A stretch of 41,478 bases of DNA, taken from positions 1-41,478 of the IMG/VR virus record IMGVR_UViG_3300020196_000094; one strand, given 5' to 3'. Origin of the DNA: a virus. A model generated the notes under the pieces. That model had not been told where the DNA came from. It saw only the letters and a list, made by a program, of their open reading frames with translations, and did no database searches. This document shows positions 2,602 through 41,478 of this stretch, piece by piece. Positions within the stretch are counted from its first letter, which is position 1. Each line of letters begins with the position of its first letter. Both the position numbers and the translations under genes were made by a program.

Positions 2602-2623
2602 TGGGTATCTCCTATATGTTAAT

Positions 2624-2631: not shown

Positions 2632-2886
2632 TTATTCTGTAGGAGCAACATAATCACTCTTTACAGATGGAGGTTCAAACTCGATAGATCCAATACTTTG
2701 TTTATATTCCATTCCTCTCAATTGTCCTTCAATAATTTCGTCAAAATAAGATTTATTTACTGATCCATCAGGAAGATATGGAATACAAACTGATTTTGTA
2801 AATTCTAATCCTTCATCATTAGTAAACTTAACAGATAATAACTTTTGACCGGGTTCTAAAGGAGAATACGAATATTTAATAGACAT
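2632..2886 (-). CDS. Small phage protein of unknown function, 84 aa
   Basis: The product runs MSIKYSYSPLEPGQKLLSVK, then F.NDEGLEF, then IPYLPDGSVNKSYFDEIIEG, and ends in a charged tail. I chose the ATG at 2886 because AAGGAGG lies 7 bases upstream; the in-frame TTG at 2892 would be too close to that site and overlaps the upstream stop. The gene is tightly coupled to the 143-residue gene, whose stop (2889-2891) is 2 bases before this ATG. No domain is recognised. Its place between the giant fibre and the fibre-tip genes suggests a fibre accessory or assembly factor, which is an inference only. Confidence 0.8.
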   Translation of the reverse strand: MSIKYSYSPLEPGQKLLSVKFTNDEGLEFTKSVCIPYLPDGSVNKSYFDEIIEGQLRGMEYKQSIGSIEFEPPSVKSDYVAPTE

Positions 2887-2888
2887 TA

Positions 2889-3320: not shown

Positions 3321-3321
3321 G

Positions 3322-22100: not shown

Positions 22101-25100
22101 TTGCAATTCTAAAGAAGCCGTATCAACATTTAATATCGTTGATGTTGTTGAATAAGATGTGGGTATTGTTTGAAGTGGAGAATATGGATTATTAGTAAAA
22201 ACTTGAGATGCTTGATTATATGGACCATATTTGTGGTTAGGAGACGCCAATCTAAATTTGATAGAGGCAGTCCCTAATGTTCCAGTTACAGTCTCACCAA
22301 CATTAAATGTGCCACTTACCATTTGAATTTCAATCAATTTAGGCATGGCATATTTTGCCATATCAACATTATCAAAAAATGCATACATCCTTGTCGTTGG
22401 TTTTAATCTTCTCGCAATAAACTCTATATTTCTTGTACGCATCCTATGAATGACTTCAGTTGATATAACAAATGTACCTAAATTTACTGTATCAAACCTT
22501 TCAGATACTTTATATTGAATACCCTGCCTTGCTTGTTTTGTAGTAGTTAATGTGGTTACATTAGCAAAATTAGTATATTGATCTCTGTAGTTTATGGTAG
22601 TAGTTTCAGGAATTCCTCTACCTTTTTGGAATCCTCCCCTATGGCTACTTCTGGAAATTTCTTGAGTGCCAACATATATGCTACCCATATTTTGTCTGGC
22701 AATTTCTTGAGTGCCAGTCCATGTAGTTTCCCAAGATCCCCAATCTATGGGAGATAATCCAGTATTTGTATCAACACCAAGTTGTTGTATTGTAGTTGAA
22801 TAATTACCTTCTTGATCAACAGTTCTCTTTGTGCCTTTAGTTTCAATCCAAGTATCCGTAGCTGGATTTAATTCAATTGCACCAATCCAATTAACAACAT
22901 GGAATGGATTTACATTTTCAGCTCTGGTAGCGAAATTATTTCTAAGGAATACAACATCAGTATATTTTAAACAAACAACATCACCAACTTTAACTGTATT
23001 TGGATTTCCTAAATCTGATACAAATCTTAAGTCTGCATCTGGATTTGAAATATTAGATGCTCCTATTACTGCTTCAGAACCTAATAGAAGATCTACTGAA
23101 GTTGTGTAATGCTGTGCTCTTAATAAACCATCTCGTGTGTCAATACTACATTTATGTTGTGGATCACCTAAAGCTCCACTACTTACAGATTTAAAATTAT
23201 CTACAAGGAATCCACACTTAAATCTATCTAACTGGGTTTGAGAATCTCTTAATGTTAAATTTTTAGTATCTGTTTCTAAGAGAGAAAGTGATGTATAATA
23301 TTCAATATTTCTTATTCTATCTTCGAGTCTTGCAATATCTTGCATTCTATATCTCTTATGTGGAGATAATTGCACTGTTACATCTCCAACATTATAAACA
23401 TAGGGTTTCATTGTAATTGTAGCTACTTCTAAAGCGTTTTCAATTAAAACAGGAGAAATTGGAGCTAATGCTGGAACTCCTTTAGATATGAAAAATTCAC
23501 CAAATCTATTAAGATATAGTTTATCTGTTCTTGCAAGATAATAAGAATAACTTAAGAATAAATCTTTATCTTTAGCAAAATTATATAGGCTAGAATTAGT
23601 TGCAGGTATAAATTTTCTAGCCTCAAATTCAAATGGAGAATATGGAGTTAAGTTACTATTATAAGGACTAACTCTTGGTCTTAAGTCAATAATGTCACTG
23701 GCTCTATAAAAAGAAATTGATGGTAATTCGGACGAATATCTTTCACTATCGTATGAATTAACCGTAGTTAAATCGCCATCATCATTTGCATCTATGTAAT
23801 AATGGCTAAATACAATTTTTAATTTTTTTGTTGGAGCGGTAACACCATCTTTTCTTTTTAATGATGAAAAATCTGCTATTTCAAGAGTTTGTCCACTGTC
23901 AAAAATAAAATCTGATACTATATTTCGATCTCCTTCTATTAATAAACTTACCTTTGCTGTAATATTTGATTCACTAAAAACAATTTTTTCATCTTTAACG
24001 AAGGTATTTTCATTAATATAAACGAATCCAAATTGATTTGTTCCGTTAGTTTCAATAAACATCGCCAAAGCACGACTTATTTCACCATAAACAATTTCAC
24101 CTTTTATTGCATTTAAAATATTAGCATTTAAATCAACAACTTCTAATTTTGGTAAATCTGGAGCATTCGCATCTGAAGATTCAAAAATTGCAGAAACAAA
24201 AATTACATCGGGAACATTTAATGAAATTCGCTCATCTTGTACTCTTGTTCCATAATAAGGACCAAATGTTAAACCATCATTAAGAGTTGTACTGCCTATT
24301 CCCGATTTAGTTGTATTTGATTTTGTAATGTCTAATATTGCACATCTATTATAGATTTTTTTTCTTGCTTTTAATCTTCTTTTTCTTAAAGTTGCTGTTA
24401 ATGTAGCGGAGCCATTTTGAGACAAATTAACTAAAGTTAAAGTTCTAGCAGCAGTAATTGTAAATTTATTTGCAGTCAGTGGTTCTACAACTCCATTACT
24501 ATAAACTAATGTATAATCCTCCTCATCAAAGGGTTCTAAACTAACATTAGTATCACTTTCTAGAGTTGCTGTCAAACCATTTGATGCAACAGTTACCGAA
24601 TATGACTTTCTAAAAACTATCTGTCCATCTGATATATCGACATTCGAAATATTTGTGTTTTCTAGTTCTGCAAAAAAGTATGAATCTCTGGGGTTTAATA
24701 ATGTAGAAACTCCTTTCAATATATCATTGATAGTTGTTGAGCTTGCTGGTAATGCACCGGCATTAACACCTGCAACATTAGGAGTGGCTTCAATTTGAAT
24801 AGATCTGGCAGAAGCATTTACTAATACTACTCTGTTATATGTTGGTAATGTTTCACCTGCCTTTGTATAGACAAAAATATCTCCTGTATTGATGCCAACT
24901 CCAAATGTAGAACTAGCGGATGTTACAGTGCTTATACCACCAGAAGCGGCAGAAATAGTAAAACTAGTGCCTTGAGGTGCAATGGGTATTGGAGTGGATA
25001 TTACAGTGTCTGCAGTAAATGTTGTTGTAGCTCCATTAAATCCAACTATTTGTCTTATATCACTTAAATTATAATCTCTAACAGCAGTTATTGTTCTAGA

Positions 25101-26687
25101 AATATCTTGTCCATCAACTTTTAATTGTTCACCATTTGAAAAACTTCCAGAAACTTGATATAACACCAATTGATTAGAGTTTGAAGCATTTATAGCTAAA
25201 AATCCAGATGCAGAACTATTTTTTCCTTCAATGAATGCTGGTCTAGATAAAGTTATTGTAGCATTTAATTGCAAATATGTATATGTTTGTATATCATAGG
25301 ATGAACTATCGAAAACACTAGCAGCATTTGAATACCCAGCATTTTTTAATTTCAAATCGTAAAGTCTAGCGACGCCTATGGGGATTCCAGAAGCAACACC
25401 TGGAGTTGCTGTTCTTTTTGAATACAAAGATACTTGACTTGTTGTTCCAAATCCTACAGGAACTGCTCCATAAACATTATTAAGTTCTACCAAATTACCC
25501 AAAGTAAATGGAACAGTGGTATCTTTTACCGACTCCGTAGTTCTGGGTTTTTCTAAATCCGCATTTACAGTTATTTGGGTTTCAACTTCATACCCTCTAA
25601 CATATGCTTTTCCGGGAGAAATCTGTAAAGTTAATAAATTATTTGAAGGAGTATTTCCTTGTTTTGTTAGTTGATTCGGATTATAAACTCCATTGTTTCC
25701 CTGTGCATTATTTAAGGATTCTTTAGCAACTACAGTAAAAGGTTTTACATAATAATCTCCTGATTCATCATTTGTTCTTCTTGCTAATTCATCATTTACT
25801 AAAGAAATTGGATCTTGTTTTTTTGGGACTTTTTTAATTTCTCCATTTTCAATCCTTAATAATTCCACAAAATTTTCGTCATTAAAATCATCTAATGATT
25901 TTTTTATTAAACTAGCAACAATTCTAAGTCTATCAGCCCCAGGAGCAGCAAAATTAGAAAATCCTCGTGCGTTATCAAATAAATCTACATTTACTTGAGA
26001 AGGTACAGCAATATCCTCGAAAATAGATAATCCGACACGATATGATGGAAGGTTGCTGTATTGATCTAATATTACGGTTTGTGGAAAAACATCTACAAAA
26101 AATCCTCTTATAAAATAAACACCTTCTTCAATCTTAATTGCAGACCCTGTAGCTGTGGAACCAGAAATAACTGTTGTAGCAAATGAAGAATCTAATCTAA
26201 TAACTCCTGTACCATAGTTTATGTTTTCTAATACTAATAAATTTTCACCATCTACAAATTTCTTAGCTGTAAAATTTGTATCACTAGAACTTTGATATTT
26301 TATATACAAGGTATTATTATTATTTTCAGATTTTTCAGCGCTGATATAGGTTTCAATTTTGGCATAAACTCCGCTAGTTTCACCTTTTATTCTTTTATCT
26401 TTTAATTTATCAAGATATACAGATACAGGAAGCCCTAAGTGAGTTGGGTCTATTTGAACACAAGTATATTCGGAATCATACGCTACATTTCCTGGTATTA
26501 CTACTTGTCCTTCTTTGAAAAAATGTTTTCCAAATTTTTCAACTTGATTTTGTAATATTGATTGAAGTGTTGTTAACTCTCTTGCTTGAATTGGAGTTCC
26601 TGGTTTGAATAAAACTCTTTGATAATTTTTTGTTACATCAAAATCATCAAAGTATGGAGATGTATTTAAATTAGTATTTTGTGCCAT
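19173..26687 (-). CDS. Giant DUF4815 virion protein, 2504 aa
   Basis: The N-terminus (NLNTSPYFDDFDVTKNYQRV, LFKPGTPIQARELTTLQSIL, FGKHFFKEGQVVIPGN) is the signature of DUF4815 (PF16075), found in T4-like cyanophages and other marine myoviruses. About residues 1115-1150 holds ARLEDRIRNIEYYTSLSLLE; about 1660 begins a WVDPLAQSFEVPDENG region; the C-terminus has FNGFQIKILMSGTNSAF..KIRDFRVIS. The 1900s hold GG.GYAIGD and 'NHGMYSLVDKV' units like those in the fibre and gp7. The gene follows gp8 by 6 bases, where T4 has gene 9, so a baseplate-periphery or fibre-attachment role is inferred. GGAG precedes the ATG. It is long for a DUF4815 protein as far as I know, but the frame is unbroken. Confidence 0.92.
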   Translation of the reverse strand: MAQNTNLNTSPYFDDFDVTKNYQRVLFKPGTPIQARELTTLQSILQNQVEKFGKHFFKEGQVVIPGNVAYDSEYTCVQIDPTHLGLPVSVYLDKLKDKRIKGETSGVYAKIETYISAEKSENNNNTLYIKYQSSSDTNFTAKKFVDGENLLVLENINYGTGVIRLDSSFATTVISGSTATGSAIKIEEGVYFIRGFFVDVFPQTVILDQYSNLPSYRVGLSIFEDIAVPSQVNVDLFDNARGFSNFAAPGADRLRIVASLIKKSLDDFNDENFVELLRIENGEIKKVPKKQDPISLVNDELARRTNDESGDYYVKPFTVVAKESLNNAQGNNGVYNPNQLTKQGNTPSNNLLTLQISPGKAYVRGYEVETQITVNADLEKPRTTESVKDTTVPFTLGNLVELNNVYGAVPVGFGTTSQVSLYSKRTATPGVASGIPIGVARLYDLKLKNAGYSNAASVFDSSSYDIQTYTYLQLNATITLSRPAFIEGKNSSASGFLAINASNSNQLVLYQVSGSFSNGEQLKVDGQDISRTITAVRDYNLSDIRQIVGFNGATTTFTADTVISTPIPIAPQGTSFTISAASGGISTVTSASSTFGVGINTGDIFVYTKAGETLPTYNRVVLVNASARSIQIEATPNVAGVNAGALPASSTTINDILKGVSTLLNPRDSYFFAELENTNISNVDISDGQIVFRKSYSVTVASNGLTATLESDTNVSLEPFDEEDYTLVYSNGVVEPLTANKFTITAARTLTLVNLSQNGSATLTATLRKRRLKARKKIYNRCAILDITKSNTTKSGIGSTTLNDGLTFGPYYGTRVQDERISLNVPDVIFVSAIFESSDANAPDLPKLEVVDLNANILNAIKGEIVYGEISRALAMFIETNGTNQFGFVYINENTFVKDEKIVFSESNITAKVSLLIEGDRNIVSDFIFDSGQTLEIADFSSLKRKDGVTAPTKKLKIVFSHYYIDANDDGDLTTVNSYDSERYSSELPSISFYRASDIIDLRPRVSPYNSNLTPYSPFEFEARKFIPATNSSLYNFAKDKDLFLSYSYYLARTDKLYLNRFGEFFISKGVPALAPISPVLIENALEVATITMKPYVYNVGDVTVQLSPHKRYRMQDIARLEDRIRNIEYYTSLSLLETDTKNLTLRDSQTQLDRFKCGFLVDNFKSVSSGALGDPQHKCSIDTRDGLLRAQHYTTSVDLLLGSEAVIGASNISNPDADLRFVSDLGNPNTVKVGDVVCLKYTDVVFLRNNFATRAENVNPFHVVNWIGAIELNPATDTWIETKGTKRTVDQEGNYSTTIQQLGVDTNTGLSPIDWGSWETTWTGTQEIARQNMGSIYVGTQEISRSSHRGGFQKGRGIPETTTINYRDQYTNFANVTTLTTTKQARQGIQYKVSERFDTVNLGTFVISTEVIHRMRTRNIEFIARRLKPTTRMYAFFDNVDMAKYAMPKLIEIQMVSGTFNVGETVTGTLGTASIKFRLASPNHKYGPYNQASQVFTNNPYSPLQTIPTSYSTTSTILNVDTASLELQSASGFYGYVVQNMQLRGEVSKAVATVTNIRLITDASGTLIGSLHIPDSKLQSTPAFETGTKTFTLTTSSTNTTIVGATDSTADTKFISSGLLNNTEEVTLRTRNANVERLSRSEERTLTSQQTTLQAGTSFVNRTVSQTRWVDPLAQSFEVPDENGVFITKCEIFFRTKDTNNLPVTMQIRTMQTGLPTTTIIPFGEVVLDPSQVNVSLDGKTPTTFTFPSPVYLETGNSYSVVLLSASNEYTVWISRMGEEDVTTLNLPESQKIVVSQQPLLGSLFKSQNGATWDPSQLEDLKLVLYRAKFVTGSSTARFYNPKLDIGNNQVVTLRPNPLDCISKSTLIGLGKSLTSAEVTGLTPGSPILQQNNSRFKSTLKSIVGSVGIGSTLTVTAAGLGFTSTFKTYSNINLVTLTGKGFGAKVNLSVQSGVAIAATVSIGGTGYAIGDTLEVNYSQTDNLGNNLILTIPNTVGVISAFNSLLVDEVQGTPNQNSVDSLFYVGSAGTNVLSGATVTTVLDLTDGLHFKVSHNNHGMYSLVDKVILSGIEPDLRPQTLKATYDSTSTSDIIVSSVGIFTSFENLPVSSINLGYILIDSEVISYTGVVTSTNSLTGITRNIDNTVSGSYGLEFPVFKYELNGVSLRRINKIHNFSDTNLTKYPTDLDYYYIQVGMNSRGLDRTPGNALGYPALFFKDDKSCGSYDTVPLLGSPKGPKASQNIPFNIIRPNFAIMTPQKTNISAKARTFSGSSPDSTLTSFLDQGFVDVTLNSNNEFGSPRIICSQINEDTYLSNFPGKKSFTMELTMSSEDEKVSPMIDLDRVNLITIANRINSKVKDYANDPRVNSLTNDPTAATYLSNVVILEKNADNLKVFFDAFRHSTSDIRVCYRIFRSDAPATTQLWELFPGYDNLDANLQVKDRSKNNGRPDKNVTHSTLEDDFKSYEFTASNLPQFNGFQIKILMSGTNSAFVPKIRDFRVISSI

Positions 26688-26693: not shown

Positions 26694-28289
26694 CTAGAAC
26701 TCCAATACAATTTTGATATCTTCTTTTTGATTGGCAGATCTTGGGATAGGTTGTCTATTGTCCAAGTAAATGATATCTCCAGATTTTTTATTATATTCAG
26801 CTGAAGAAATACCAGCAACAAACTGTTGTCCCAACTGATATATTCTATTATTTATCGTAGTAGTTACCCCGCTAAAAGATGAATTAATTGTTAATGTTGG
26901 TCCAACAATTACAGAACAAGTAATTGTTGTTCCATACCCAATATCCGGATTTGAAGTAAATGGAATAATTTTAAATCCAGTTTCACTTGAAGCTAGTCCT
27001 GTTGGTTGATAATATTTCAATACTCCAGTTATTGGATCCCAGGAAGCTACAAATCCTATCGCTGTTGATCCAAATCCAACAGTCTGTTTTATAACTGCAT
27101 CTACAGCGTATGTTGTATTAGTAGTAACTCCGCTTAATTTTAAAGCATTTAATCCACTAACCACTGAAGTATCTAAAATTTGAACATCACTTCCTGAAAT
27201 AGTAGGATTTTTTAGTATCCCAACTCTAGCAAAATCATTTCCTAAAATAATATCAGGATTACTATCTAAGGTTTCATATCTAGAGTAAAGTAAAACCTTA
27301 TAAGCACCAAGTTCTCTATAAATATCGTACCCATGACCACCCTTTGGTGGAATAATAACATTAAAAGAAGCTATAGAAGTCGTACCAATTCCAGTGTTAC
27401 TTAACTGTTTTAATGGACCAGTTACCTCGGATCCAGGCGCGCCAGGATAAAATTGTATTGTTCCATAGGTATAATTTTTTCCACCATCAGTAACAAATAC
27501 TTCAGATACTTTACCAAAAGAATCAATTGTAATTGTTGCTTTACCTCCAGTTCCATCTCCCAATATGGGTACATTTGAAAAAGATGTTGAAATTGGTTGA
27601 TAATTCGTTCCTCTGCTATTAATTATAACAACTTCTATTTTACCATCAACAGAATTGGTTTTTGTAGAAATTGATTCACCCGTACTCCCCCAGTTTTCGG
27701 GAACAGGTATATATTCAATAGAATCAAACTTAACGATTTCAGAAGGTTTAATCGTATATAAGTATTTCCAAATATATCCATCACCACTAGCTCCTGCAGC
27801 TCTTGGTTCTAAATCAATAAATGTAGGTTGGTCAAAAGATGGCCTACCTTTTGGATTTTCGGGATCAGTTCCGTTTTGTAGGCAAATATATACTCTCAAA
27901 TCTTCATTTATAACATAAAAATTTGATTCATATAAACCAGTTTGAGATGTAACTGGAGTAACATTATAAACATTATAGTCATGTCTGTACATTTCAAAAG
28001 TGTTTCCTGCTACCCAGGTAACTTTTCTGACGAGTCTTCGTACATCCTGACTTGTGATTTGTTTTAATGATATGATACTTTCTTTAACTACATATTCCTC
28101 TTTAAATCCATCTACAGGAGATGGAGTATTAGCAATCCAATTTGAAGAGCCGCCAGCGGCAGGACTAGTACTATTTGGTAGCCCTATAAAAGTGTAATAC
28201 TTATTTGATGTGTCGCCCACACCAGAAACACTTTTTACAAAGTTTTCAGCATTTAAAACTCTAAATTGATCCGATATTATAGCGGGCAT
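26694..28289 (-). CDS. gp8: Baseplate wedge protein gp8, 531 aa
   Basis: gp8 is a T4 baseplate wedge subunit; with gp7, gp10 and others it forms the wedge around the hub. Both ends match T4 gp8 as I recall it. Near the start MPAIISDQFRVLNAENFVKS corresponds to the T4 'IVTSKFRTEKMLNFYNSI' region. About residues 170-203 (GDGYIWKYLYTIKPSEIV, then EYIPVPENW) match GDGYVWEYLFEIPPD...EYIVVPW. The end (SGDIIYLDNRQPIPRSANQK then 'EDIKIVLEF') matches SGEMIYMENRPPI...EEINILFTF. T4 gp8 is 334 residues; the extra length here lies mostly between 205 and 500, with two G..Y strand motifs (VIINSRGTNYQP, VFVTDGGKNYTYG). It follows the gp7-like gene as in T4 (7 then 8). There is no strong ribosome site; the ATG at 28289 is set by the homology. 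Confidence 0.93.
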   Translation of the reverse strand: MPAIISDQFRVLNAENFVKSVSGVGDTSNKYYTFIGLPNSTSPAAGGSSNWIANTPSPVDGFKEEYVVKESIISLKQITSQDVRRLVRKVTWVAGNTFEMYRHDYNVYNVTPVTSQTGLYESNFYVINEDLRVYICLQNGTDPENPKGRPSFDQPTFIDLEPRAAGASGDGYIWKYLYTIKPSEIVKFDSIEYIPVPENWGSTGESISTKTNSVDGKIEVVIINSRGTNYQPISTSFSNVPILGDGTGGKATITIDSFGKVSEVFVTDGGKNYTYGTIQFYPGAPGSEVTGPLKQLSNTGIGTTSIASFNVIIPPKGGHGYDIYRELGAYKVLLYSRYETLDSNPDIILGNDFARVGILKNPTISGSDVQILDTSVVSGLNALKLSGVTTNTTYAVDAVIKQTVGFGSTAIGFVASWDPITGVLKYYQPTGLASSETGFKIIPFTSNPDIGYGTTITCSVIVGPTLTINSSFSGVTTTINNRIYQLGQQFVAGISSAEYNKKSGDIIYLDNRQPIPRSANQKEDIKIVLEF

Positions 28290-28322: not shown

Positions 28323-31300
28323 TTACTTACTTATAATATTTCTGGTTCTTATGACTTTTGGCGAAGTAGATAGTCCAGAACTTCCATTATCAGTAAGAGC
28401 TGTGAAGGTTTGAGGATTTCCTAAAACTCTATTTTGGTAGTCGTATATTTTGCCCCAACTATATCTTCCATAGAAATTATTTGTTCCAATTCCAGTATTA
28501 TTTGATCCTCTACTGTAAACTTTTACATAATTATCAACCATGGGAGCAAAGTTGCATGTTACTGTTACTATACCAACTGATGGTGTCGTTATATCTTCAA
28601 CAATATAAACACCGTCTAGGAAAGATTTTGCTATTCCAATTTTAGAATTTGGATAATTACTCATACCACCAAGAAGGGTTGTAATTCCAACTAAGTCACC
28701 ACCAGTTTGAACATTACTATCAGTTATTACAAAATAATCTCCTTTTGATAGTTGGCTATTAACAATACCAAAAGCATTCAGTGCAGAATACCCTACACCT
28801 AAAGTACTATTATCATATTGTTCGGATTTTAAAGTGAAAGAAATTTTTGGAGATGTGGTTCCTATACCAGGAGTTCCTGCGATATATGTAATAATTCCCA
28901 CAATTATTCCATGATCTCCTACAGCTTTAAATGACTTAACGAATTCAGTTTTATATGTGTCACTCTCTATTAAAACTGGTGGCGAACTGCCAAAGCCATA
29001 TCCAAATCCAGGATTAACTATTTGGATAGATGTTACACTCCCGTTATTTGTAGTAGCAGTTGCAGTTGCAGAATTGTAAACCGGATCTGCATACATTATA
29101 GTAGATCCAGTTCCAACAAGAACATATCTCCCATCTGATCCAATATTATTTGTAAATATTAAATCATTGACATTTTTTGATTGTAGTGTACTTCTGTAAA
29201 CCCAATTTGTCAAATTAAAGGAATAATACAATTGTCCCGAAGACGTCACTGCTACATAGAAACCATAATTATAATATATGTTTACTAGATTTTCGGCTCC
29301 AAGATTATTTGAAATAAGTTGATAGTTATCTCTATTAATTGATTTTAAAATTATTCCTTGATTTCCAACTATAATAAAGTCTCCATTAACATAGATTATT
29401 TTATTTAAATTATTGGTTACTGGAGATGTAGTGTTTTCCCATATTGTTCCAGTATCAGAAGTTCGAATTGTACCATTATTACCAACCGCAACAAAATAAG
29501 TATTACCAAATACAACACTATTAAAATCGGACAATGTTTCGGAATATCTACTAACAAAACTACTTGTACTTATACCATTGCCAATAAAAATAGATCCACC
29601 AGCTCCAACAGCAACCCAAGTATTAACAGAATTAGAATATACTATTTGATTGAATGTTCCGGTATATGCACTACCCACTCTACCTACAGCTCCTATACCT
29701 AAAACAATAATATCTTCTTCTAATGGAATTTTAGTCCAACTAGAAATAACAGATCCGCTATCTGTAGCTCTTATGATTTTGCCTGCAGTTCCAGCAGCGA
29801 CTAATAAATTACTTGTACCAACACCGACCACTTGAATTGAATTAAAATTGGAGGTTTGGCTAAATCCAACTGTATCGACTTGCCAAGATATTCCATCAGA
29901 ACTTGTAGCAAAGACTGAACTACTTCCGATAGCAACAAATTTATCTTTATATTGTATAGATTTAAAATCATATGATGTAGTTACCCCTGTTGCAAATTTC
30001 CAATTAAAAATAGGATCTTTTAATTTAATAGCAGATTTTGAAATAACTACTTTTGGTGATTGTGTATTTGCATAACCAACTCCGCCATTTGTTACAACCA
30101 CAGAAGAAATCGTAGACGAAGAGGAAACTACAGCTTGACCCAAAGCAGAAGTAATAGATTTATCTTCAAATATGAAAAGATCTCTAATATCTTCAGCGAG
30201 TTGATCTAAATCCGAAAATAAAGGATACGCATTATCAACATATATCGCCGAATCTTGTGGTGAAATAGTTTTAATAACGGTTGCAGATGGTCTTATATTA
30301 CTTTGGAAACTTGGTCTTGATTTAGAGTACAATGTGCCACTGATTACGGTGTCACTGATTTGTTTTTGCCAGGTAAGAGGTCTAATTTTTGTTGGATCAG
30401 TTATTATCCCAACAGAATAATAATTAAAAGTTTCTAATTGGTCAGAAGCCGTTATTTTTTTAACAACACGATCAAATTGAGAAATATCAAAAGGATCTTC
30501 TGGATTTTCCTGAATTATTACTTTATCTCCGGGTTTAATTGTTGGTGGTGGTACAATCAACTCAACATCATTAGATGACCCTCTGTAGTACAGAATAAAA
30601 CATTTTGATCCTGGTTTAGGCGCCTCGGTAAATATGACTCTACTTCCAGAGAATTTGTACGATGAATTTGGAACCTGTAGTACATCGTTTATGTATATAA
30701 AAATATTATTTGTTACATCTAAGTTTGTTCCGACAGGAACTCTCAATCCAAGAACTTGTTTTACCCCATTTATAGTTGTAGAAAGAGTAAACTTTTTCCT
30801 AAATCCATTAAAGAATTGAGAAATATCATCAAATTTTATAAATTGACCAGGATAGAAACCAGAAAAACTATCTGTTTCAACTTCTTCGACCGTTAATATA
30901 AATGGTTGATATTGTTTAAAGGATACTATACCACCTTGAACATAATAATGTGGTATACTTGAAATAGAACCAGCTTGTATAGTAAATGTGTTTGTAGATG
31001 CAACGGAAATAACTCCAAATTCATAAGCTCCATCACCACTAGACTCAGTGTATCTGAGAATTCTTTGCATAGTTGGAACTTTTTTAGTTATTCCACCACT
31101 GACATAATTATGAACAATTGTAGAAATGCCTGCATTAAATGTAAAGGTGTTTGTAGTTATACCTGTAACAGTAAATGTGGCCCCATAAATGGAAGACCCT
31201 GGATATGGATATATCGTTGATGTAATACCAGCTTGCGCTGTTCCACCCGAAACATAAGTATGGGCAATACTAGAAATACCAACATTAATGGTAAATTTAG

Positions 31301-34300
31301 TATTACTTATTATAGAATTAACTTTAAAAATGTCCCAATTACTCAATGTATTTGAGCTAGATCCTGGATACGGGAATATTGTAGATGTAATACCAGATCC
31401 ACTGGGACAAGTAAGAGCGATTCCAGCTAACTTGATTTGTTTTCCTTTAATAGCTAAGTGATTACTTGCGGTAGTGATTGTTGCTATTCCAGATACTTTA
31501 TCATAAACAAGATTCGTAATATTTACAATTGGATTTTGAACATATCCAGGACAGGTAAGAGAAAGACCTGCCAAAGTAACTTTATCTCCAATTAGGTAAC
31601 CATGATTAGTTGAAGTAGTCGCTGTTGCAATACCAGTTGTATTAGTATATTTAAATGTAGTAATTCCTATTTCTGGCCAACCAACAAATACATGTGGAAT
31701 TGTAGAAATTCCAGAATTTATTGTAAAACTTGTGGATCCTAAAGATGTAAGAACTGGGAATACTTTTCCATAAGTACTTGTGCCATCGGGGAATATTGTA
31801 GTTGTTACACCCGATTGAGCTGTCCCGCCAGAAACATAAGTATGTGCAATACTAGAAACTCCCGCGTTAATTGTGAATTGTGTATTACTTAAAACTGAGT
31901 TGACTTTAAATACATCAAATGTCCCACTTACAGCGTTTGGACTTGATCCTGGGTATGGATATATTGTTGATGTAATACCAACTGTTGCTGTACCACCTGA
32001 ACTATAAGTGTGTGCAACAGTAGAAATCCCTGCATAAAATACAATCGTCGCACCAGAAGTACCTGCAAGAACCCGGAACACATTAAAAGTTCCCCCAAGG
32101 GTATTTGGACTACTATTTGGATAAGAATTGCCCAAGGTCCCTATACCAGCTGAATATGGAAACTTGGTGGTTGAATACCCGATAGCTTCTGATGGGCAAG
32201 AAAGAATGATATCAGCAAGTTGAACATATTCGCCGGGTATTAATCCATGATTTGCGTTAAGTGTAATGGTTGTTATGCCGGTAGAATTAGTATAAACAAA
32301 ATTGGTAATATTATAAGTTGCAATTCCAGTTGCACTATGTGCAGCACAAGAGAATGCAATTCCAGCCAGTTTTACTTGTTTTCCTGTAACTGCACCATGA
32401 TTAGAGGATGTTGTAATTGTAGCAATACCAGCTATATGATTGTAAACAACATTACTAATATTGACTGCGGCATTCGTTGTGTATGATGGACAATTAAACG
32501 GTAAATTATATAAAAATACTTCGTTGCCTGTTTGATTATATGGAACATCAGTTCTCAATAATCCATGAGGAGAATAAGTAACAATTGTAGAAACCCCAGT
32601 AACATTATCATACGAGAATGTTTTAATTCCTACTTCATCATATCCACAAGTAAATGCAATTCCAGTTAAAATTACATCATCACTTTCGTTTAAATTATGA
32701 GAATTTGATGTAGTTATCGTAGTAATTCCAGTTAAATTATTATATGTTAAATTGGAAATCGATAGTGTATCATATCTAAATGTAGTATTGGTTTTTATTC
32801 CAAGTGGTGTTAATTTATCACCAACTCTATATCCTACCCCAGGTTCATCAAATTTATAGGAAATTATACTAGATCCCAGACTAACCTCAACTGTTAATTT
32901 CGCCTTTTGACCACTTCCAGATGATCCAGAAGTATACCCAAGAGATAAATTACTATATCCTGTAGGTATTCCAATTACTACTTTTGGACTAGATTTTTCT
33001 GGTATTGTCGTATAACCAGTTCCAGCATTTACAATAACAAATCCAGTTATTGTTCCAGCTGCGCTAACTAAAGCGGTTATGCTTGCACCAAATCCAACAG
33101 TGGCTGCAATGCTGACAACTGGGGCAGATCTATATCCTGATCCACCACCAGAAACTCTAACACTACTAATAGTTCCAGTAACAGATACGGTTGCAGTTGC
33201 AGCTGCTCCAATTCTTGGAATATATCCATGACTTGTTGACACGGCAACTTTAGATATTTTTCCTGCTTTTGGAACTCCAGATAAAAATTTAAGTGTGTTT
33301 GTTCCAGATCCATCAATCGTAAAATCTTCTAATGGATTTTGCGAAACATTATTAATTGTTATTATCGGATTATTACTTATTTCAGTACTACTATTGACAG
33401 TATTAAATAAACTATTTACGGTTTGTCCTTTAGACTTTATAGTAAACTGTGTCGCAGCAATACCGGTAAAAGATAATGTCAAGTCATCAATAAGTAAATT
33501 TTTGTCTTGAGGAACACTAGGATCAAATTTTCTACTGAAAACTCTAGCATTAAAAATAGATCCGGTCAATAGTCCTACTCGACCAATTTTTCCATATGGA
33601 GCAGTATCAAAGTATATAACATCGCCGATAATATTAAAATTACCGTTTAAAACGGTAACAGATGTTCCAACGGTATGTGATGCTGCAACCGAACCAAAAT
33701 ATCCTCTTACAACCTCTATTTTATTTGCTGACGAAACGCCAATTGTTTTAATTGAAACTAATTCATCCGCTAAATTAATAATATCATTTTTAGCTAATGA
33801 AGAAATTCCTGATGATATAGTTAATATTGTTGTTGATGCCGTCGAAACACTAGAAGCTAAAGAAACATTTAAAGGTTTTCTGGTTAAAGCTTTTTGTATT
33901 ATTCCATCAATAGTAACTAATATACTGTGATTTGGTTCTTTATATTCAAGATGATGAATAGCTGTTCCTACACCAGTAATATCTAAAAATACACTAGTAG
34001 ACAATCCAGATAATTTAAATTCATTATCATTTAGTTTATATACAAAGAGAGATTTTGGTAACACTTTAGTGCCCAGTTCAAGTGGACTAAATGTTAAATT
34101 ATCATTTGAATCTGTACCTCCGATATAAGTTCCAGCAACAGAAACTATAGAGGTAGATGCATATCCAGATCCACCATTTAAAACTCCAACAAAATTAATT
34201 GCTCCAGAAGAATCTCTAGAGATATCAAAAGTAGCTCCAGATGAATCATTAGAAGGAACGGAAAGATAACTTTGATTTGATTGCCCAGAAATTACGGTTG

Positions 34301-37300
34301 GTCCAGTTTTTGAAATTACAAATGTAAGATCATTGGTTGGAGTGGCACCACCCAAATAAGTTCCTGCAATAGAAACAGTTTGTCCCACAGAATATCCCTT
34401 ACCACCTTTAGTGGGTAATATTGAAGTCGAAAGTGGTTGACCAGTAGTTGAAGAGTATGATCTGAATACTGTAAATTCAGCTGTAGATCCGGTTGTTGTT
34501 ATTCCGATAACTTGAACATATGATTTAGAAGTTGGCCCAACAGGTACTAGAACCGTACCCACTCCAGTTATACTTGTCGTTATCGCAACAGAATATCCAT
34601 TTTCAAGAACCGCAGTACCATTAAAATTATGAACCTGCATTAAAGTTGAAGTTATTCCTGAAACATAAGAAGTTGTAGCAATTCCAATAGGACTTCCATT
34701 AGAATAAGAATATATCAATTCTTGACCAGACTGAAAATTATGATTTGGAATTATGAATGTATCAGTGACGGAATTAATATTATTACTGGAAACTTGATGT
34801 TTAAATAACGGAGTTCCATTATTTTTTAATTTAAATGTTGTTAGTCCAACTATACCTCCACCTCTTTGTATAGATGGATATGTTATGATGCTTGGAGCTG
34901 CAGTTACTCCAATTCCAATTACTGAAGTAATAATTCCAATATAGTTACTAATTGCGCTTTGAACATCTGCACAACAATTTTCACTATAAGATAAATTGCA
35001 ATTAATGTCCGGTAAAATTGTAGTATTTGAATACTGTGTTGTAGATATAAATGCTCGTTGAACTGTTCCCCCGTTTACATAATCATGAGTAATAGTAGAT
35101 GGTCCCGTATTAACTCTAAATGTAACTCCATCAATAACTTCTACTTTATAAACAAATCCTTTAGGAGATAACGAAGCATTTCCATCTGGTCCTGCACCAA
35201 GACTCGGGAAAATTGCAGTGGTTATTCCACCACCAGAATTACAAGAAAGAGTTATATTTTTTAAAACAACATAATTTGTAGTCGTAGTTGAGAGTCCATG
35301 AAAAGTTGTAGTACCAACTGTGGATATACCTGTTATATTATTATAAACTAAACTATTAATACCAACTGAATTAGCAAGTTGATATGAAGTTTTAACTCCT
35401 GTATTGTTAATAATAAACTTAGTTAAATCAACAATATACTTAAATCCGGCTATCGTTTCGGTAGTTTCTCCATCCACATAATTTATTCCATCGACAGTTG
35501 ACCAGTATGAAAGTGCTGCCTCAACCGTTTTATTATTTGAGTTATATTTGAGATCGTGTGAAACTGCATCAACAACCAATCCCACATCTCTTGCACAAAC
35601 ATCTCTATCCCAATCTGGATTGGTGGTGATTCCAGGATAGGTAGCAGTTATAAATCCTACAACTTCTTCTTGAATGAATAGTCGGTTACCATCTATCAAA
35701 TCAGATGCATCAGCAAATCTATCACGCAAATCCTGTACTGAAGTCCCGTCAAATTGATTACTTATATCATCGACCTGAATAACTTTATTTGTTTTGTTTA
35801 CTATGAAAGAACTCAAATCAATGCCGCCATCAAAAAATATATTTTGAGTGGATCCATCTGATAGGGTTTCTTCTTCATAAACTCTAGCAAAGTTTTGTTT
35901 ATTACTAAAATTTATTACTGAATCAACATTAATAAAGGTAGATGAATCATTACCTAATAATTTTGGTCTCATATTTGTTGACTTGGAAATACCAACATTA
36001 ACTTCATTTAATGTCGCTTGAGTAAATATTTCCAAATCAGAAAATTCTTTAAATCCGGAAGGATGTACTATTGATCTTACGGATTCTCTCCATATATTAT
36101 ATGGAACATCACTTCTAATAGAATAGGAAAATTTTTGATAGTAAAAATTATCAGAAATTCTTTGAGAATATTCATTTAAAATACCAGAAGAAAGATCTAT
36201 TGAAGATCGTTTATCACGAGAGATACCTAGTGTTGCATATAAATTAAATACATCAAAATATTCAACAGTTCCATTAATTCTAGAAGTATCTCCAAAAATT
36301 TTGTCTAGGACATTTATTTCGCCAGATATATTTTTTAATCTCATTTGATTGAGTTTATTGTCCCAACCATTTTCCATTATTACTCCAGAAAACTTTGCGG
36401 AGGATATTTTTTCATTAGAAAAATAATTTACATCATCTTTCAACACCATTTCAAAAACTGGTAAATCTTTTTTATTGATGACTGAACCTAAACCAAAATC
36501 ATCATCATATGTACCAAAACCACCCGTAGCAATTCCTGCCATATCATAAGTAACAGTATTATTAACAGAGCTAACTCCTACAACATCAAAAAATCGATAA
36601 TCGTATGAGGATGAGTTAAAATTAGCTAACTGTGCAGTGGATGGTGTTATTCTACAATTTTCAATAAAAATTTGATCTCCTGGAGCAAATGGGAATGTAT
36701 AAGCGGTTTCACCAAATCCAGAAGGTATAAATGGATTGTTTGAGGCTATACTATTTGTTAATTCTAAAGTTACTAAATTTCCAGAAATAGAAACTGAATC
36801 TATTTCATATCCATTTGAATTGTGTATTGTAAATATTTCAAGAGGATTTGATATTGAAGTAGAATTTTTAATAATATCTACAGAAACCACAGATCCTGCA
36901 GATACATTAGAGGCAAGTTCTATACCATTAGTATCGTTTCTTACTATTAATTTTGGTGCAGTATTGAGTCTTCTACCTCCAGTAACTATTCCAATATAGT
37001 TTATGGTTCGTATATCTTTTACCCCAATAATAGTTGGTACACTCAAAAACGGTGAAAGTGTAGGGTCTGTTGGATAATCAAATCCATCCTTTACTCTATC
37101 AAAAGTTTCAACTCTACCAATTGTTGGAGATATAAGCTTTACGACAGCATTTGTACCTAAGGTGCTTTTTATTCTTTTAACAATTGGTAATTTCTTGTAT
37201 CCTCTACCCTCAAAATTAATTTTTAATTCTGATACTGGCCCTAAAGCATTGGTAGATGTTGTTTTATAAGAAAACTTAGTTAAATTTTGAACTAGAATTT

Positions 37301-40300
37301 GTTTTTCAATATCTGTTAAGTTTTTATTATTATCGAATATAAATTTTTTACTAGATGGTACAGTTGTTACTACAAATGTATCATTAAGTTTATGATTTAT
37401 TATTGAAATTTTATTGTTGGATATTACATCATAATCTGTTGATATTTGTTTTTTACTTTCTTCAGAGGATCCCTGAGAGGAAAATTTGTAATATATGGGG
37501 AAATTTTGTTCTGAAAGATCTAAAATAACTTTTGCGCCCGTATTTCCAGGAATTGCAGTTCTAGTTACAAAAAATCCACTTCTTTCATTAATACGCTCAA
37601 TAAAGTTTACATCATAATAAAATTGTAAATTCAAATTAAGTAAACTAGAATCAGATAAATCAAATTCTATTTTTGTAGTTCTTATGCAACTAATCTGGGG
37701 GTTAATATAATATAATTTTTGATTAGATCCACCTGTTGATGAAAAATTTATAAATTTGGATTCGAATATATCGCTTCTATGCTGACATAGTTTTATAGAA
37801 TTGAAGTTGGTTTTTGAAACATAATAAATTCCATAATTTGATAGTCCATTAATTGGATTTTGTGCAATATACACAAGTTTATCGCCAGTATTAATATTTC
37901 CCGAATATGAAGAAATATCTATAGTATCATCGTTAACGGATACATTGCTGTTTGAAAATGGAATTTCTCGCATCAAAATTTTTCTATTTACAGGATCAAA
38001 AATAACTTTTATAACTTCATTATAAGTTGTAGATATATTGAATTTTATTCTATCGCCAACTTTTAAATTATGATTTGTTTTTGTTGTTACTATGCCTACA
38101 CTTTTTTGTAGTGTTCCCGTTATTTTTGGATTTATAGTAGTTAAAGAGTGAGCCGCTCCTATCACTCCATAAGCTTTTTCTTGATCCCAAAATTGTAAAC
38201 AATTATTAGTAGTGCCTATTCCTATCGAACTTGTAAATCCAATTGTAGATAGTCCAACATAATCTCTACCTAAATTTACAGCGTAGACTAATTGATTATC
38301 CTGTAATTTAAATGAAACTGAAGATCCTACATTATTTACAAACAAAGATGTACCCGCAATTCCAGATCCAGAGTTGTAAATTAATGGTTGACCGGTAAAA
38401 AATTTGTGGCCAGGTATGAATATACTTCTTGTTGGAATAAATCTAATTTCAAACTGCGATGTACTTCCAACTCCCACAACATTCCGAGTTGAACCGCTGG
38501 TGCCAATACCTACAGTAAATCTTGGATCAAAAAATGTCGTATAGTTTTCAAGTCTATAATTACTTGAATCATTTAATTCAACTGTAGGAACTCCTGTTAG
38601 TGGTTGTAAACCAGAATCACGGATATCACCTCCAATTGTTGCAATTTTAAATTCTTTTGGAAGTAAAAATACTGTATCAATTCCAACAGAATGAATTCCA
38701 GTATTTTGAAGTCTATTTACAAAAAATCCAGATCTTCTAATATCAACATTAGTAATTAATAAAATTTCTGTTCCTATTCCTATAAAATCATTCGATTTAA
38801 ATCCATTAACATCTTTTACTTTTATAAAAGTTGATATTCCAGTTGAATTTAAATCACCAATAGATTCTAGTAATTCCGATTTTTTTTCTGCAACTTTAGC
38901 ATATTTAACACCTTGTAATGAAAGTGCAGTAATTGTTGATACTCCACTAATTAAAACTGGTTGACCATTTACAACTCCATGCGGTGAACTTGTTCGTATT
39001 ATAGTATCAGGTATACTAACTATGACTTCGTAGTTAGTTATTTTATCTTCGATTAAACTAAAGTTTGTAATTTCTCTACCTTGTAATTCACTTACAACCA
39101 CATTTGATTGTATACCCCCAGTATCACTTATGTCTATTTCTACAGGATCATTAACTTTATAATTATCTCCAGCAGAAAATATAGATACATCTTCTATTTT
39201 ACCAGAGTTTATTTCGGTTATAATAAATTCTTGTTTATATTCTTCTAGTACTTTATCTATTAAATCATAAGATGAATTAGCAGAGTTTAGATAATATGGA
39301 CCAACATTTCGAGTTAAACTTGTATCAAAAATTTTGGAGTCTTGATTAAATCCAGGTAAGAAATTTTCTTTCACTGGTTTATTATAAAAATACGGACCAA
39401 CTACATATGGGTATTTGGGAACAGGTTCATTTGCGGCATTAAGCTCAATTGTATTATAATATGCATATACCCCATTTGGGTATTCTGGAGTTATGGAAAA
39501 TCTACCATTATGTTGATCTAAATCACCTGAACCATCAAAAATATAATCATTAATGAAAAATCCATTTTCAAACAATGGAGGTCTTTTACCTGGAGTTAAG
39601 TCAATATTCAATATATAACTGGGATTCATTCTTCTTATAAATCCACCAGTTGTTGTGTCATATGCATATGGCCCATAGATAGGGTTTCCATCATATGCAT
39701 AACCCAAAATTGGAGAATGATTAAGTGTACCTGTATTTTCTTTATTATTTTGTCCTAGATTATCTGATAGTTGATATCTTAATTTTTTAGGGACATAAAA
39801 ATTGATAAATTGTAATTCAAGTTCTGGATTTTTAGAAGAATACAAAACACCATCATCATCATTGTTAATAATATTTTTACTTTTGACTACTTGATTTATT
39901 TTCCATTCAGTTATATTTGTTAAAAATTTCGCATTCAATCCTCTATTCTTTAAAGTTAATATTGTAGTTTTTGAATCATACCCTACACCACCAAAAACTA
40001 TATTTACAGCAAATAGTTTTCCATCCTGTACAATTGGTTCTATTTGTGCGTAACTTCCTTCGCCTGAAATTGATATTTCGGAATTTTCTCTAAAACCATT
40101 GCCTCTACCGATAATTTGAACATCAACTATTGAACCATTAATGATGATTGGCTTTAAAATAGCTTCAGATGTTATACTTGCAATTCCGGTATTCGGTCTT
40201 CTATGATAATTAACAATATTTGTACATCCATATCCAATACCCCCATCCTCAACATAAACATCTTCGATAACACCCAGTACAATTGGTTTTAGCTCTGATT

Positions 40301-41478
40301 TTATATTTGTAGTAGCTCCTGTTCCAGATTTTGATTCTACACGTACTTCAATAGGTGGATATCCAATAATATGAGTTCCAATTCCTAAAGAGTTGAATTT
40401 GACAAATTTATTTTTTATGTAATTTTCATCGCTTAAAGAAGTACTAACTCCAGAATTATAAAGTCTAAATTTATCATTATCTATAACTTTAACCTTGTAG
40501 TATGAAATAGATGATAATCCGCTTATCGCAGTGTTTGTAGAACTGTATATTACAACCTCTCCGTTAGAAAATCCATGATTTTTTGCAAAAATATAAGAAT
40601 CAAAAGTATTAATGCCTAAAGTTCTATTATCAGCTGAAAGTATAGAAGGAACTTTTATTTTTCTATTTGAATATCCTTCTCCAGGATCTTTTACATAAAT
40701 CTTTGTGAAGGTATTTTTATTTTTTAAAGTTCTTATGAAATGGAATCCAGAGGAAATTCCAATAATATCTATTTCACTTGTTTTTTGGAGAGCATCTATT
40801 CTATTATTGAATAATTTGATCTTATTATCAGTCAAAATTCCAACAAAATATGTTGAACCATTAACAATTCCTAAAATATTACTGTTATTATTTGAATCAT
40901 AAATTATCTGCTCGCCGTCTTCAAAAGGAACTGTATTTAAAAACTGTATAGTATTAGCTGCTGGAATTACATTGAGGTCTGCTTTAAATCCTGCGGAAAT
41001 TTGTGTATTGACAAAGTTTGATTCTAATACGCAACCTCTGCCATTTCCACCGATGATGGTAATTTTAGGTTTATCTTGATATCCATATCCAGCATTTAGT
41101 ATTTTAATTTCCCTAACTGTTCCGGAAAGATTTACATGTGCTTTACATCCAGATCCAGTATCATCATTTACTACAATTGGTGGAACATCAATTAAATCGT
41201 AATCCTGCCCTTTATTAGTAACATTAATTGACGAGACTGTTCCATAGTAAATATTTTCATCGAATAAAGTTGGAGAAAGTAGTTCGACCCCATTATTCAA
41301 AAGACCCAATTCTCTGTTAAAAGTAGTTCTTTCGTTTAAATCATCAAATGCTGCCTTTATCCGATTAAAAGGAAATTTTTTTAATAACTTTTGATGTTTT
41401 ATAGTTTTATCTTGATATCCACTCGTAAATAAAATATCATTAGTTATTGGTATAGTAGTTGTTATATATTTTTTTGAA
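28323..41478 (-). CDS. gp7: Giant gp7-like baseplate wedge protein, partial 5', at least 4384 aa visible
   Basis: The frame is open to the window edge and has no stop upstream of the TTG at 41309, so the true start is outside. Residues below count from the edge. T4 gp7 (1032 aa) initiates wedge assembly and is followed by gene 8, as here. About 1-60: KKFPFNRIKAAFDDLNERTT. 590: YAYDGNPIYGPYAYD, YHYH-like. 1769-1810: ISDNFYYQKFSYSIRSDVPY, W.E, 'IVHPSGF', close to T4 gp7's YY..KI.S.LP...W...V.RFVHPVGF. 1945-2190: PDWDR/CARD/VDA and CCADVQSAI modules. 2900-3480: a long repeat array. 3600: NDVLQVPNSSYKFSG, a fibre-like motif. 3828-4135: a predicted seven-bladed propeller. The gp7 call rests on this motif and on gene order; most of the chain is not in T4 gp7. 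Confidence 0.88.
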   Translation of the reverse strand, partial: SKKYITTTIPITNDILFTSGYQDKTIKHQKLLKKFPFNRIKAAFDDLNERTTFNRELGLLNNGVELLSPTLFDENIYYGTVSSINVTNKGQDYDLIDVPPIVVNDDTGSGCKAHVNLSGTVREIKILNAGYGYQDKPKITIIGGNGRGCVLESNFVNTQISAGFKADLNVIPAANTIQFLNTVPFEDGEQIIYDSNNNSNILGIVNGSTYFVGILTDNKIKLFNNRIDALQKTSEIDIIGISSGFHFIRTLKNKNTFTKIYVKDPGEGYSNRKIKVPSILSADNRTLGINTFDSYIFAKNHGFSNGEVVIYSSTNTAISGLSSISYYKVKVIDNDKFRLYNSGVSTSLSDENYIKNKFVKFNSLGIGTHIIGYPPIEVRVESKSGTGATTNIKSELKPIVLGVIEDVYVEDGGIGYGCTNIVNYHRRPNTGIASITSEAILKPIIINGSIVDVQIIGRGNGFRENSEISISGEGSYAQIEPIVQDGKLFAVNIVFGGVGYDSKTTILTLKNRGLNAKFLTNITEWKINQVVKSKNIINNDDDGVLYSSKNPELELQFINFYVPKKLRYQLSDNLGQNNKENTGTLNHSPILGYAYDGNPIYGPYAYDTTTGGFIRRMNPSYILNIDLTPGKRPPLFENGFFINDYIFDGSGDLDQHNGRFSITPEYPNGVYAYYNTIELNAANEPVPKYPYVVGPYFYNKPVKENFLPGFNQDSKIFDTSLTRNVGPYYLNSANSSYDLIDKVLEEYKQEFIITEINSGKIEDVSIFSAGDNYKVNDPVEIDISDTGGIQSNVVVSELQGREITNFSLIEDKITNYEVIVSIPDTIIRTSSPHGVVNGQPVLISGVSTITALSLQGVKYAKVAEKKSELLESIGDLNSTGISTFIKVKDVNGFKSNDFIGIGTEILLITNVDIRRSGFFVNRLQNTGIHSVGIDTVFLLPKEFKIATIGGDIRDSGLQPLTGVPTVELNDSSNYRLENYTTFFDPRFTVGIGTSGSTRNVVGVGSTSQFEIRFIPTRSIFIPGHKFFTGQPLIYNSGSGIAGTSLFVNNVGSSVSFKLQDNQLVYAVNLGRDYVGLSTIGFTSSIGIGTTNNCLQFWDQEKAYGVIGAAHSLTTINPKITGTLQKSVGIVTTKTNHNLKVGDRIKFNISTTYNEVIKVIFDPVNRKILMREIPFSNSNVSVNDDTIDISSYSGNINTGDKLVYIAQNPINGLSNYGIYYVSKTNFNSIKLCQHRSDIFESKFINFSSTGGSNQKLYYINPQISCIRTTKIEFDLSDSSLLNLNLQFYYDVNFIERINERSGFFVTRTAIPGNTGAKVILDLSEQNFPIYYKFSSQGSSEESKKQISTDYDVISNNKISIINHKLNDTFVVTTVPSSKKFIFDNNKNLTDIEKQILVQNLTKFSYKTTSTNALGPVSELKINFEGRGYKKLPIVKRIKSTLGTNAVVKLISPTIGRVETFDRVKDGFDYPTDPTLSPFLSVPTIIGVKDIRTINYIGIVTGGRRLNTAPKLIVRNDTNGIELASNVSAGSVVSVDIIKNSTSISNPLEIFTIHNSNGYEIDSVSISGNLVTLELTNSIASNNPFIPSGFGETAYTFPFAPGDQIFIENCRITPSTAQLANFNSSSYDYRFFDVVGVSSVNNTVTYDMAGIATGGFGTYDDDFGLGSVINKKDLPVFEMVLKDDVNYFSNEKISSAKFSGVIMENGWDNKLNQMRLKNISGEINVLDKIFGDTSRINGTVEYFDVFNLYATLGISRDKRSSIDLSSGILNEYSQRISDNFYYQKFSYSIRSDVPYNIWRESVRSIVHPSGFKEFSDLEIFTQATLNEVNVGISKSTNMRPKLLGNDSSTFINVDSVINFSNKQNFARVYEEETLSDGSTQNIFFDGGIDLSSFIVNKTNKVIQVDDISNQFDGTSVQDLRDRFADASDLIDGNRLFIQEEVVGFITATYPGITTNPDWDRDVCARDVGLVVDAVSHDLKYNSNNKTVEAALSYWSTVDGINYVDGETTETIAGFKYIVDLTKFIINNTGVKTSYQLANSVGINSLVYNNITGISTVGTTTFHGLSTTTTNYVVLKNITLSCNSGGGITTAIFPSLGAGPDGNASLSPKGFVYKVEVIDGVTFRVNTGPSTITHDYVNGGTVQRAFISTTQYSNTTILPDINCNLSYSENCCADVQSAISNYIGIITSVIGIGVTAAPSIITYPSIQRGGGIVGLTTFKLKNNGTPLFKHQVSSNNINSVTDTFIIPNHNFQSGQELIYSYSNGSPIGIATTSYVSGITSTLMQVHNFNGTAVLENGYSVAITTSITGVGTVLVPVGPTSKSYVQVIGITTTGSTAEFTVFRSYSSTTGQPLSTSILPTKGGKGYSVGQTVSIAGTYLGGATPTNDLTFVISKTGPTVISGQSNQSYLSVPSNDSSGATFDISRDSSGAINFVGVLNGGSGYASTSIVSVAGTYIGGTDSNDNLTFSPLELGTKVLPKSLFVYKLNDNEFKLSGLSTSVFLDITGVGTAIHHLEYKEPNHSILVTIDGIIQKALTRKPLNVSLASSVSTASTTILTISSGISSLAKNDIINLADELVSIKTIGVSSANKIEVVRGYFGSVAASHTVGTSVTVLNGNFNIIGDVIYFDTAPYGKIGRVGLLTGSIFNARVFSRKFDPSVPQDKNLLIDDLTLSFTGIAATQFTIKSKGQTVNSLFNTVNSSTEISNNPIITINNVSQNPLEDFTIDGSGTNTLKFLSGVPKAGKISKVAVSTSHGYIPRIGAAATATVSVTGTISSVRVSGGGSGYRSAPVVSIAATVGFGASITALVSAAGTITGFVIVNAGTGYTTIPEKSSPKVVIGIPTGYSNLSLGYTSGSSGSGQKAKLTVEVSLGSSIISYKFDEPGVGYRVGDKLTPLGIKTNTTFRYDTLSISNLTYNNLTGITTITTSNSHNLNESDDVILTGIAFTCGYDEVGIKTFSYDNVTGVSTIVTYSPHGLLRTDVPYNQTGNEVFLYNLPFNCPSYTTNAAVNISNVVYNHIAGIATITTSSNHGAVTGKQVKLAGIAFSCAAHSATGIATYNITNFVYTNSTGITTITLNANHGLIPGEYVQLADIILSCPSEAIGYSTTKFPYSAGIGTLGNSYPNSSPNTLGGTFNVFRVLAGTSGATIVFYAGISTVAHTYSSGGTATVGITSTIYPYPGSSPNAVSGTFDVFKVNSVLSNTQFTINAGVSSIAHTYVSGGTAQSGVTTTIFPDGTSTYGKVFPVLTSLGSTSFTINSGISTIPHVFVGWPEIGITTFKYTNTTGIATATTSTNHGYLIGDKVTLAGLSLTCPGYVQNPIVNITNLVYDKVSGIATITTASNHLAIKGKQIKLAGIALTCPSGSGITSTIFPYPGSSSNTLSNWDIFKVNSIISNTKFTINVGISSIAHTYVSGGTAQAGITSTIYPYPGSSIYGATFTVTGITTNTFTFNAGISTIVHNYVSGGITKKVPTMQRILRYTESSGDGAYEFGVISVASTNTFTIQAGSISSIPHYYVQGGIVSFKQYQPFILTVEEVETDSFSGFYPGQFIKFDDISQFFNGFRKKFTLSTTINGVKQVLGLRVPVGTNLDVTNNIFIYINDVLQVPNSSYKFSGSRVIFTEAPKPGSKCFILYYRGSSNDVELIVPPPTIKPGDKVIIQENPEDPFDISQFDRVVKKITASDQLETFNYYSVGIITDPTKIRPLTWQKQISDTVISGTLYSKSRPSFQSNIRPSATVIKTISPQDSAIYVDNAYPLFSDLDQLAEDIRDLFIFEDKSITSALGQAVVSSSSTISSVVVTNGGVGYANTQSPKVVISKSAIKLKDPIFNWKFATGVTTSYDFKSIQYKDKFVAIGSSSVFATSSDGISWQVDTVGFSQTSNFNSIQVVGVGTSNLLVAAGTAGKIIRATDSGSVISSWTKIPLEEDIIVLGIGAVGRVGSAYTGTFNQIVYSNSVNTWVAVGAGGSIFIGNGISTSSFVSRYSETLSDFNSVVFGNTYFVAVGNNGTIRTSDTGTIWENTTSPVTNNLNKIIYVNGDFIIVGNQGIILKSINRDNYQLISNNLGAENLVNIYYNYGFYVAVTSSGQLYYSFNLTNWVYRSTLQSKNVNDLIFTNNIGSDGRYVLVGTGSTIMYADPVYNSATATATTNNGSVTSIQIVNPGFGYGFGSSPPVLIESDTYKTEFVKSFKAVGDHGIIVGIITYIAGTPGIGTTSPKISFTLKSEQYDNSTLGVGYSALNAFGIVNSQLSKGDYFVITDSNVQTGGDLVGITTLLGGMSNYPNSKIGIAKSFLDGVYIVEDITTPSVGIVTVTCNFAPMVDNYVKVYSRGSNNTGIGTNNFYGRYSWGKIYDYQNRVLGNPQTFTALTDNGSSGLSTSPKVIRTRNIISK
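31030..32780 (-). repeat. Long in-frame repeat array inside the gp7-like gene
   Basis: Two interleaved unit types occur. Type 1 is 'lvY...tGi.TITTs..H......k.V.LAGIa.tC', with at least six copies. Type 2 is 'Ts.Ifpypgss...FdvfkV...l..t.Ft...Gis.IaHtYvsGGtaq', with at least five copies. Several copies are nearly the same at the DNA level (for example around 31200, 31370 and 31950), which points to recent amplification. One diverged copy lies earlier in the protein, at about 35040-35360. Confidence 0.85.

Follow-up and report, generated by a model that had tools for sequence, protein, structure and literature searches.

The minus-strand gene that runs from position 28323 to position 41477 of the window, the whole 41,478-nucleotide stretch of viral DNA analysed here, encodes most of a giant protein that, judged by its sequence, is homologous to the baseplate wedge protein gp7 of T4, with the homology confined to two core blocks. 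In T4 and in related contractile systems the (gp6)2-gp7 heterotrimer forms the scaffold of the wedge. It is highly probable, in our view, that the giant protein is the gp7 of such a wedge in a kyanovirus-like T4-type phage and that it has been enlarged at two sites into peripheral arms. The identification as gp7 is made at the level of sequence, from the homology of the core blocks and the gene order gp25-gp6-gp7-gp8; for the extra mass we infer a role as arms and in receptor binding. The genes of the window on which the argument turns are:

28323-41477, minus strand: residues 638-5021 of the 5,021-residue baseplate wedge protein of gp7 type (phrog_2885, E=0)
26694-28289, minus strand: gp8, baseplate wedge, adjoining the giant gene downstream (phrog_438, E=5e-155; PF09215, 42 bits)
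19173-26687, minus strand: VrlC-type protein (DUF4815), tested as a rival of the giant protein for the place of gp7 (phrog_358, PF16075)

An earlier note on this DNA had described a reading frame open to the edge of the window and followed by gp8. Both observations hold, the frame running for 4,384 codons uninterrupted by a stop and gp8 being recognised by both its PHROG and its Pfam family. The window is the entire IMG/VR record, which itself has no sequence upstream of the edge. When viral contigs were searched, two others in IMG/VR proved to bridge the 5′ edge, L008 with an overlap of 2,640 nt and one mismatch and L006 with an overlap of 13,000 nt and two mismatches. The start codon is an ATG at L008:3815, 2 nt past the stop of gp6, and the first 637 residues, which lie outside the window, are encoded at L008:3815-5725. 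Upstream on the same contig come gp25 (PF04965) and then gp6, with three Pfam gp6 domains, so that L008 and the window together give the order gp25-gp6-gp7-gp8. Recovery of the true start, which the earlier note had called for, leaves the same gene in place, and the bridging excludes the possibility that a start or stop close to the edge makes it a different one. Completed in this way, the protein is 5,021 residues long and has a mass of 544 kDa. It is oversized, as had been claimed, though the figure of at least four times T4 gp7 becomes 4.9 times. Residue numbers below refer to the full 5,021-residue chain, of which the window covers 638-5021.

The link to T4 required family profiles, since a phmmer search of the PDB with the window protein returned no matches. 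The first core block, at residues ~145-290, is homologous to residues ~678-813 of T4 gp7 and contains the motif KGT..S...LF..LY; the second corresponds to T4 residues ~810-905 and contains W..V..VHP.GF. The longer segment YY..W..VHP.GF, on which the gp7 assignment had first been based, is indeed present, at residues ~2415-2447. When a profile of residues 1-300 from 13 cyanophage relatives was aligned by hhalign with a profile of four Straboviridae gp7 proteins, the match had P=96.1 and E=3e-9, while ten other T4 structural proteins used as controls gave P<1 and the reversed gp7 profile gave 0.1. In 60 column shuffles the top scores were 24 and 28, against 52-84 in the real comparisons. Searched against 177,635 PDB sequences, the first-block profile found T4-type gp7 alone as significant (E=1.3e-6 and 1.9e-6, the next match having E≥0.88); the second block by itself did not recover gp7 in the PDB profile search. 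With T4 gp7 as the query against the relatives, phmmer aligned T4 residues 729-758 with residues ~192-222 and T4 residues 862-890 with residues ~2400-2440. T4 gp7 itself matches phrog_2885, the family whose profile matches the giant protein at 1665 bits over residues 5-1913 of the window's part and to which the N-terminal part belongs with E=1.8e-155. Two shorter proteins, from Xanthomonas phage X1 (498 residues) and phage phiM12 (1,007 residues), carry both blocks and bridge the distance. The match to T4 gp7 is thus far above chance, and the proposed identity is supported by the profiles, the true start and gp8; it has to be narrowed, in that the homology extends over two short blocks only. 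Their shortness speaks against the reading as a whole.

Along the chain, the features discussed below are:

36336-41477, minus strand: most of the insertion between the core blocks, residues 638-2351; T4 has domain V here
39435-39737, minus strand: residues 1218-1318, matching the YHYH domain family (PF14240, 82 bits; cut-off 25)
35874-36335, minus strand: residues 2352-2505, the second of the two core blocks (aligned by profile with T4 gp7, P=93.9, E=1.5e-7)
35385-35888, minus strand: residues 2501-2668, a module also present in tail fibre P0004 of the same phage (44% identity, E=2.6e-35)
34887-35036, minus strand: second piece of the module shared with P0004, residues 2785-2834 (57% identity, E=4.4e-10)
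9049-9717, minus strand: residues 1136-1358 of tail fibre P0004, to which the shared module corresponds
30930-32834, minus strand: residues 3519-4153, a repeat-rich stretch whose length varies among relatives
28326-30941, minus strand: conserved C-terminal region, residues 4150-5021 (AlphaFold model, mean pLDDT 77)
29079-29996, minus strand: predicted beta-propeller, residues 4465-4770 (pLDDT mostly >90; YCF48, E=4.4e-12)

T4 gp7 (1,032 residues; PDB 5hx2, 5iv5) has both core blocks, arranged in the same order, and shares the gene order gp6-gp7-gp8. On T4 gp7 the Pfam models cover a helical domain (643-689), domain V (766-861, 96 residues) and domain VI (920-1012). The conserved blocks flank the position of domain V, and it is here that the giant protein differs, with ~2,060 residues (roughly 290-2350) that replace or enlarge the domain, as well as ~2,500 residues beyond the second block. 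T4 residues 1-642 (domains I-IV) have no detected counterpart, phmmer having aligned only the two core segments. The giant protein is matched by none of the three Pfam models, all of which recognise T4 gp7; the models are probably narrow in range. The C-terminal region gave no match to T4 gp6 or to gp8-gp12.

The closer kyanovirus relatives align colinearly with residues 1-2548, a span that includes the insertion, and are 27-52% identical there. The part of the giant protein that is conserved furthest includes the YHYH domain, in a region seen in at least 600 viral stretches. The polar residues H1224, D1233, D1281 and D1291, which would belong to the predicted metal site, recur in 80 phage and 68 cellular copies, these copies having been chosen by similarity. 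Unlike in other members of the family, the domain is embedded in a baseplate protein, though such fusions, together with a predicted function as a metal-dependent hydrolase, have been reported before (PMC7824862). An AlphaFold model of the YHYH region (38949-40271) showed no similarity to a solved fold. Long stretches resembling the phage YHYH region also occur in ten contigs labelled planctomycete, archaeal, Flavobacteriales or Lewinella (L217-L224, L226, L228), which may be misbinned phage contigs.

Past residue ~2550 the sequence becomes a mosaic. Two pieces of it are shared with tail fibre P0004, and the repeat-rich stretch that follows lacks 621 residues in contig L009. No tandem repeats were found at the DNA level, the repeats being visible in the protein alone. 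The propeller behaves as a cassette, absent from S-SM2, where its flanks are adjacent. Among solved propellers, YCF48 (5ojr, 2xbg; TMt 0.74, prob 1.00) has the fold most like that modelled for residues 4465-4770, with 17% identity. Because the score for the YCF48 family (PSII_BNR, PF14870) is 25.5 bits, just under the Pfam cut-off of 27, we say of the modelled propeller that it folds like YCF48, not that it is a member of the family. Both the repeats and the propeller had been predicted from the letters alone, and both are present in the chain. A common origin of the cyanophage C-terminal propeller and the N-terminal part of T4 gp7, which has an Asp-box-like SNDKGQTW, was also considered and is unsupported, the profile comparison giving P=0.2.

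Several other genes of the window encode fibre-like or repetitive proteins. A 3,266-residue tail fibre (3322-13122, minus strand) has a major-tropism-determinant N-terminal domain and, near its C-terminus, a self-cleaving S74 chaperone domain. At 641-2418 on the minus strand lie three tandem paralogous ORFs of ~190 residues each, with 27-40% mutual identity, which match the C-terminal part of the tail fibre family phrog_6942 and are possibly alternative fibre tips. In the 1,178-residue protein encoded at 13178-16714 (minus strand), which is weakly related to phrog_11522, a short motif resembling AQTPEDTQLFSISG recurs many times.

An oversized gp7 is a known and annotated property of kyanoviruses, widespread in cyanophages, and the window protein is one member of the series. 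Relatives that adjoin gp6 range from 498 to 6,619 residues, many of them annotated as gp7 or 'baseplate wedge initiator', although the copy in S-SCSM2R is called only 'large exoprotein'. Beyond X1, phiM12 and T4 the sizes rise through S-CREM2 (1,937, assigned by position only), ME01 (1,942), Syn1 (3,274), S-CAM9 (3,884), S-SM2 (4,156) and ACG-2014f (4,225) to the window phage (5,021), S-SCSM2R (5,172) and S-SZBM1 (6,619). The proteins of ME01 and phiM12 end shortly after the second block, from which it follows that the two sites grow independently of each other. A total of 464 phage records match the first 2,999 residues encoded in the window, and there are PHROG families with 4,179 and 6,136 positions. 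The phrog_2885 proteins of S-SCSM2R, S-SM2, ACG-2014f and S-CAM9 likewise lie between gp6 and gp8 and share the colinear region and some of the C-terminal cassettes, but they differ in the number and choice of those cassettes and in the length of the repeat stretch. The observation of a giant gp7-like protein was therefore correct and for the most part not new; what has been added is a test of its identity as gp7. In the literature covered, which was partial, no published mapping of the T4 core onto these giants was found.

Presence in the virion is supported through two of these relatives. S-SZBM1_208 was detected in purified virions as a 724-kDa protein with 71 peptides and 13.5% coverage (PMC9146016), and the S-CREM2 protein encoded between gp6 and gp8 was detected with 91 unique peptides (PMC10665884). 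S-SZBM1_208 resembles the window protein in having both gp7 core blocks and a position after gp6; it is larger, with ~510 extra residues within the first block and extra genes before gp8. The module common to the window protein and its tail fibre is also present, in repeated form, in S-SZBM1_208 (L297:21249-41108).

Is the giant protein one unit? A comparison with contig L007 (93% identity) gave dN/dS values of 0.05-0.32 for every 250-codon interval over the full length, and complete single ORFs of 4,261-4,907 residues occur in many independent contigs; for these reasons the open frame is not a product of chance. An equivalent single ORF is found in the isolate S-SCSM2R. In S-SSM7, however, the same region consists of three genes, of 3,007, 340 and 3,001 residues, the large ones aligning to residues 1-3217 (minus 2549-2841) and 3219-5016. 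The one in the middle is a connector-type gene with no counterpart inside the window protein. Since S-SSM7 encodes the C-terminal part separately, covalent continuity is dispensable in some phages. This layout, and the mosaic nature of a C-terminal part that has a module in common with a tail fibre, would fit a protein that is cut after translation, with the gp7 core and a C-terminal fibre or adhesin assembling as two distinct proteins. We regard this as improbable given the single ORF in most relatives, the low dN/dS across the junction and the single 724-kDa entry in the S-SZBM1 virion table, a tryptic table being no proof of an intact chain.

A more radical alternative is that these phages have no gp7, that VrlC substitutes for it and that the giant is an unrelated structural protein. 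VrlC is conserved beside gp8, and gp7 has been said to be absent, with VrlC in its place, in pelagimyophages and cyanomyophages (PMC7029224). A VrlC profile, however, matched T4 gp7 with P=0.3 only, against 94-96 for the two blocks of the giant, and phiM12 carries VrlC in addition to a gp7-type protein of ordinary size. It therefore seems very unlikely that VrlC takes the place of gp7, and our result contradicts the published claim of its absence in cyanomyophages. That the ORF is an artefact fusing several genes, as might be feared from the way repeat-rich stretches can mislead assemblers and from contig L032, where the ORF is in two pieces, is already refuted in practice by the agreement of L006, L007 and L008 with the window and by the S-SCSM2R isolate. 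The break in L032, where a true split of the gene was considered and rejected, resembles one frameshift within colinear sequence and is read as an error or a recent mutation.

Returning to the reading of the giant as an enlarged gp7, we suggest that the two blocks meet and form the core of the wedge with two gp6 chains, one copy being present per wedge. Long segments would leave this core internally and at the C-terminus and form arms on the rim of the baseplate, where their YHYH domain and propeller could make contact with other fibres or with the surface of the cell. Within the arms, cassettes would be gained, lost and exchanged with the tail fibres. With six copies, a number taken from T4, the protein would amount to about 3.3 MDa per baseplate. 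Vibrio phage XM1 offers a small-scale parallel. Its 242-residue gp7 orthologue, gp17, is part of a (gp6)2-gp7 wedge and holds the tail spikes through an internal loop (80-106) and its C-terminal region (PMC10457771). By analogy with that description, the internal and C-terminal enlargements of the giant may be outlets like those of XM1, the equivalence of the internal site being the more conjectural; the outlets in XM1 are tens of residues long, those of the giant thousands.

No homologues of T4 gp10-gp12 were found among the proteins of the window, and these proteins have been reported missing in cyanomyoviruses (PMC2984593); the arms may therefore stand in for gp10, gp11 and gp12. More tentatively, and with rather less than even confidence, gp7 could be the main display arm of the baseplate in kyanoviruses, with two growth sites that add, lose and swap cassettes and so do the work of gp10, gp11 and gp12. 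The cassettes concerned would be the YHYH domain, the YCF48-like propeller, the repeat stretches and the modules shared with tail fibres. The analysis provides a testable map of the growth of a wedge protein from 1,000 to 5,000 residues, in which the conserved core is split by ~2,060 residues and then followed by ~2,500 in exchangeable cassettes. It also points to candidate domains for host contact in phages without recognisable gp10, gp11 or gp12. If the arms do bind receptors, they would be a place to look for the determinants of host range in these aquatic phages.
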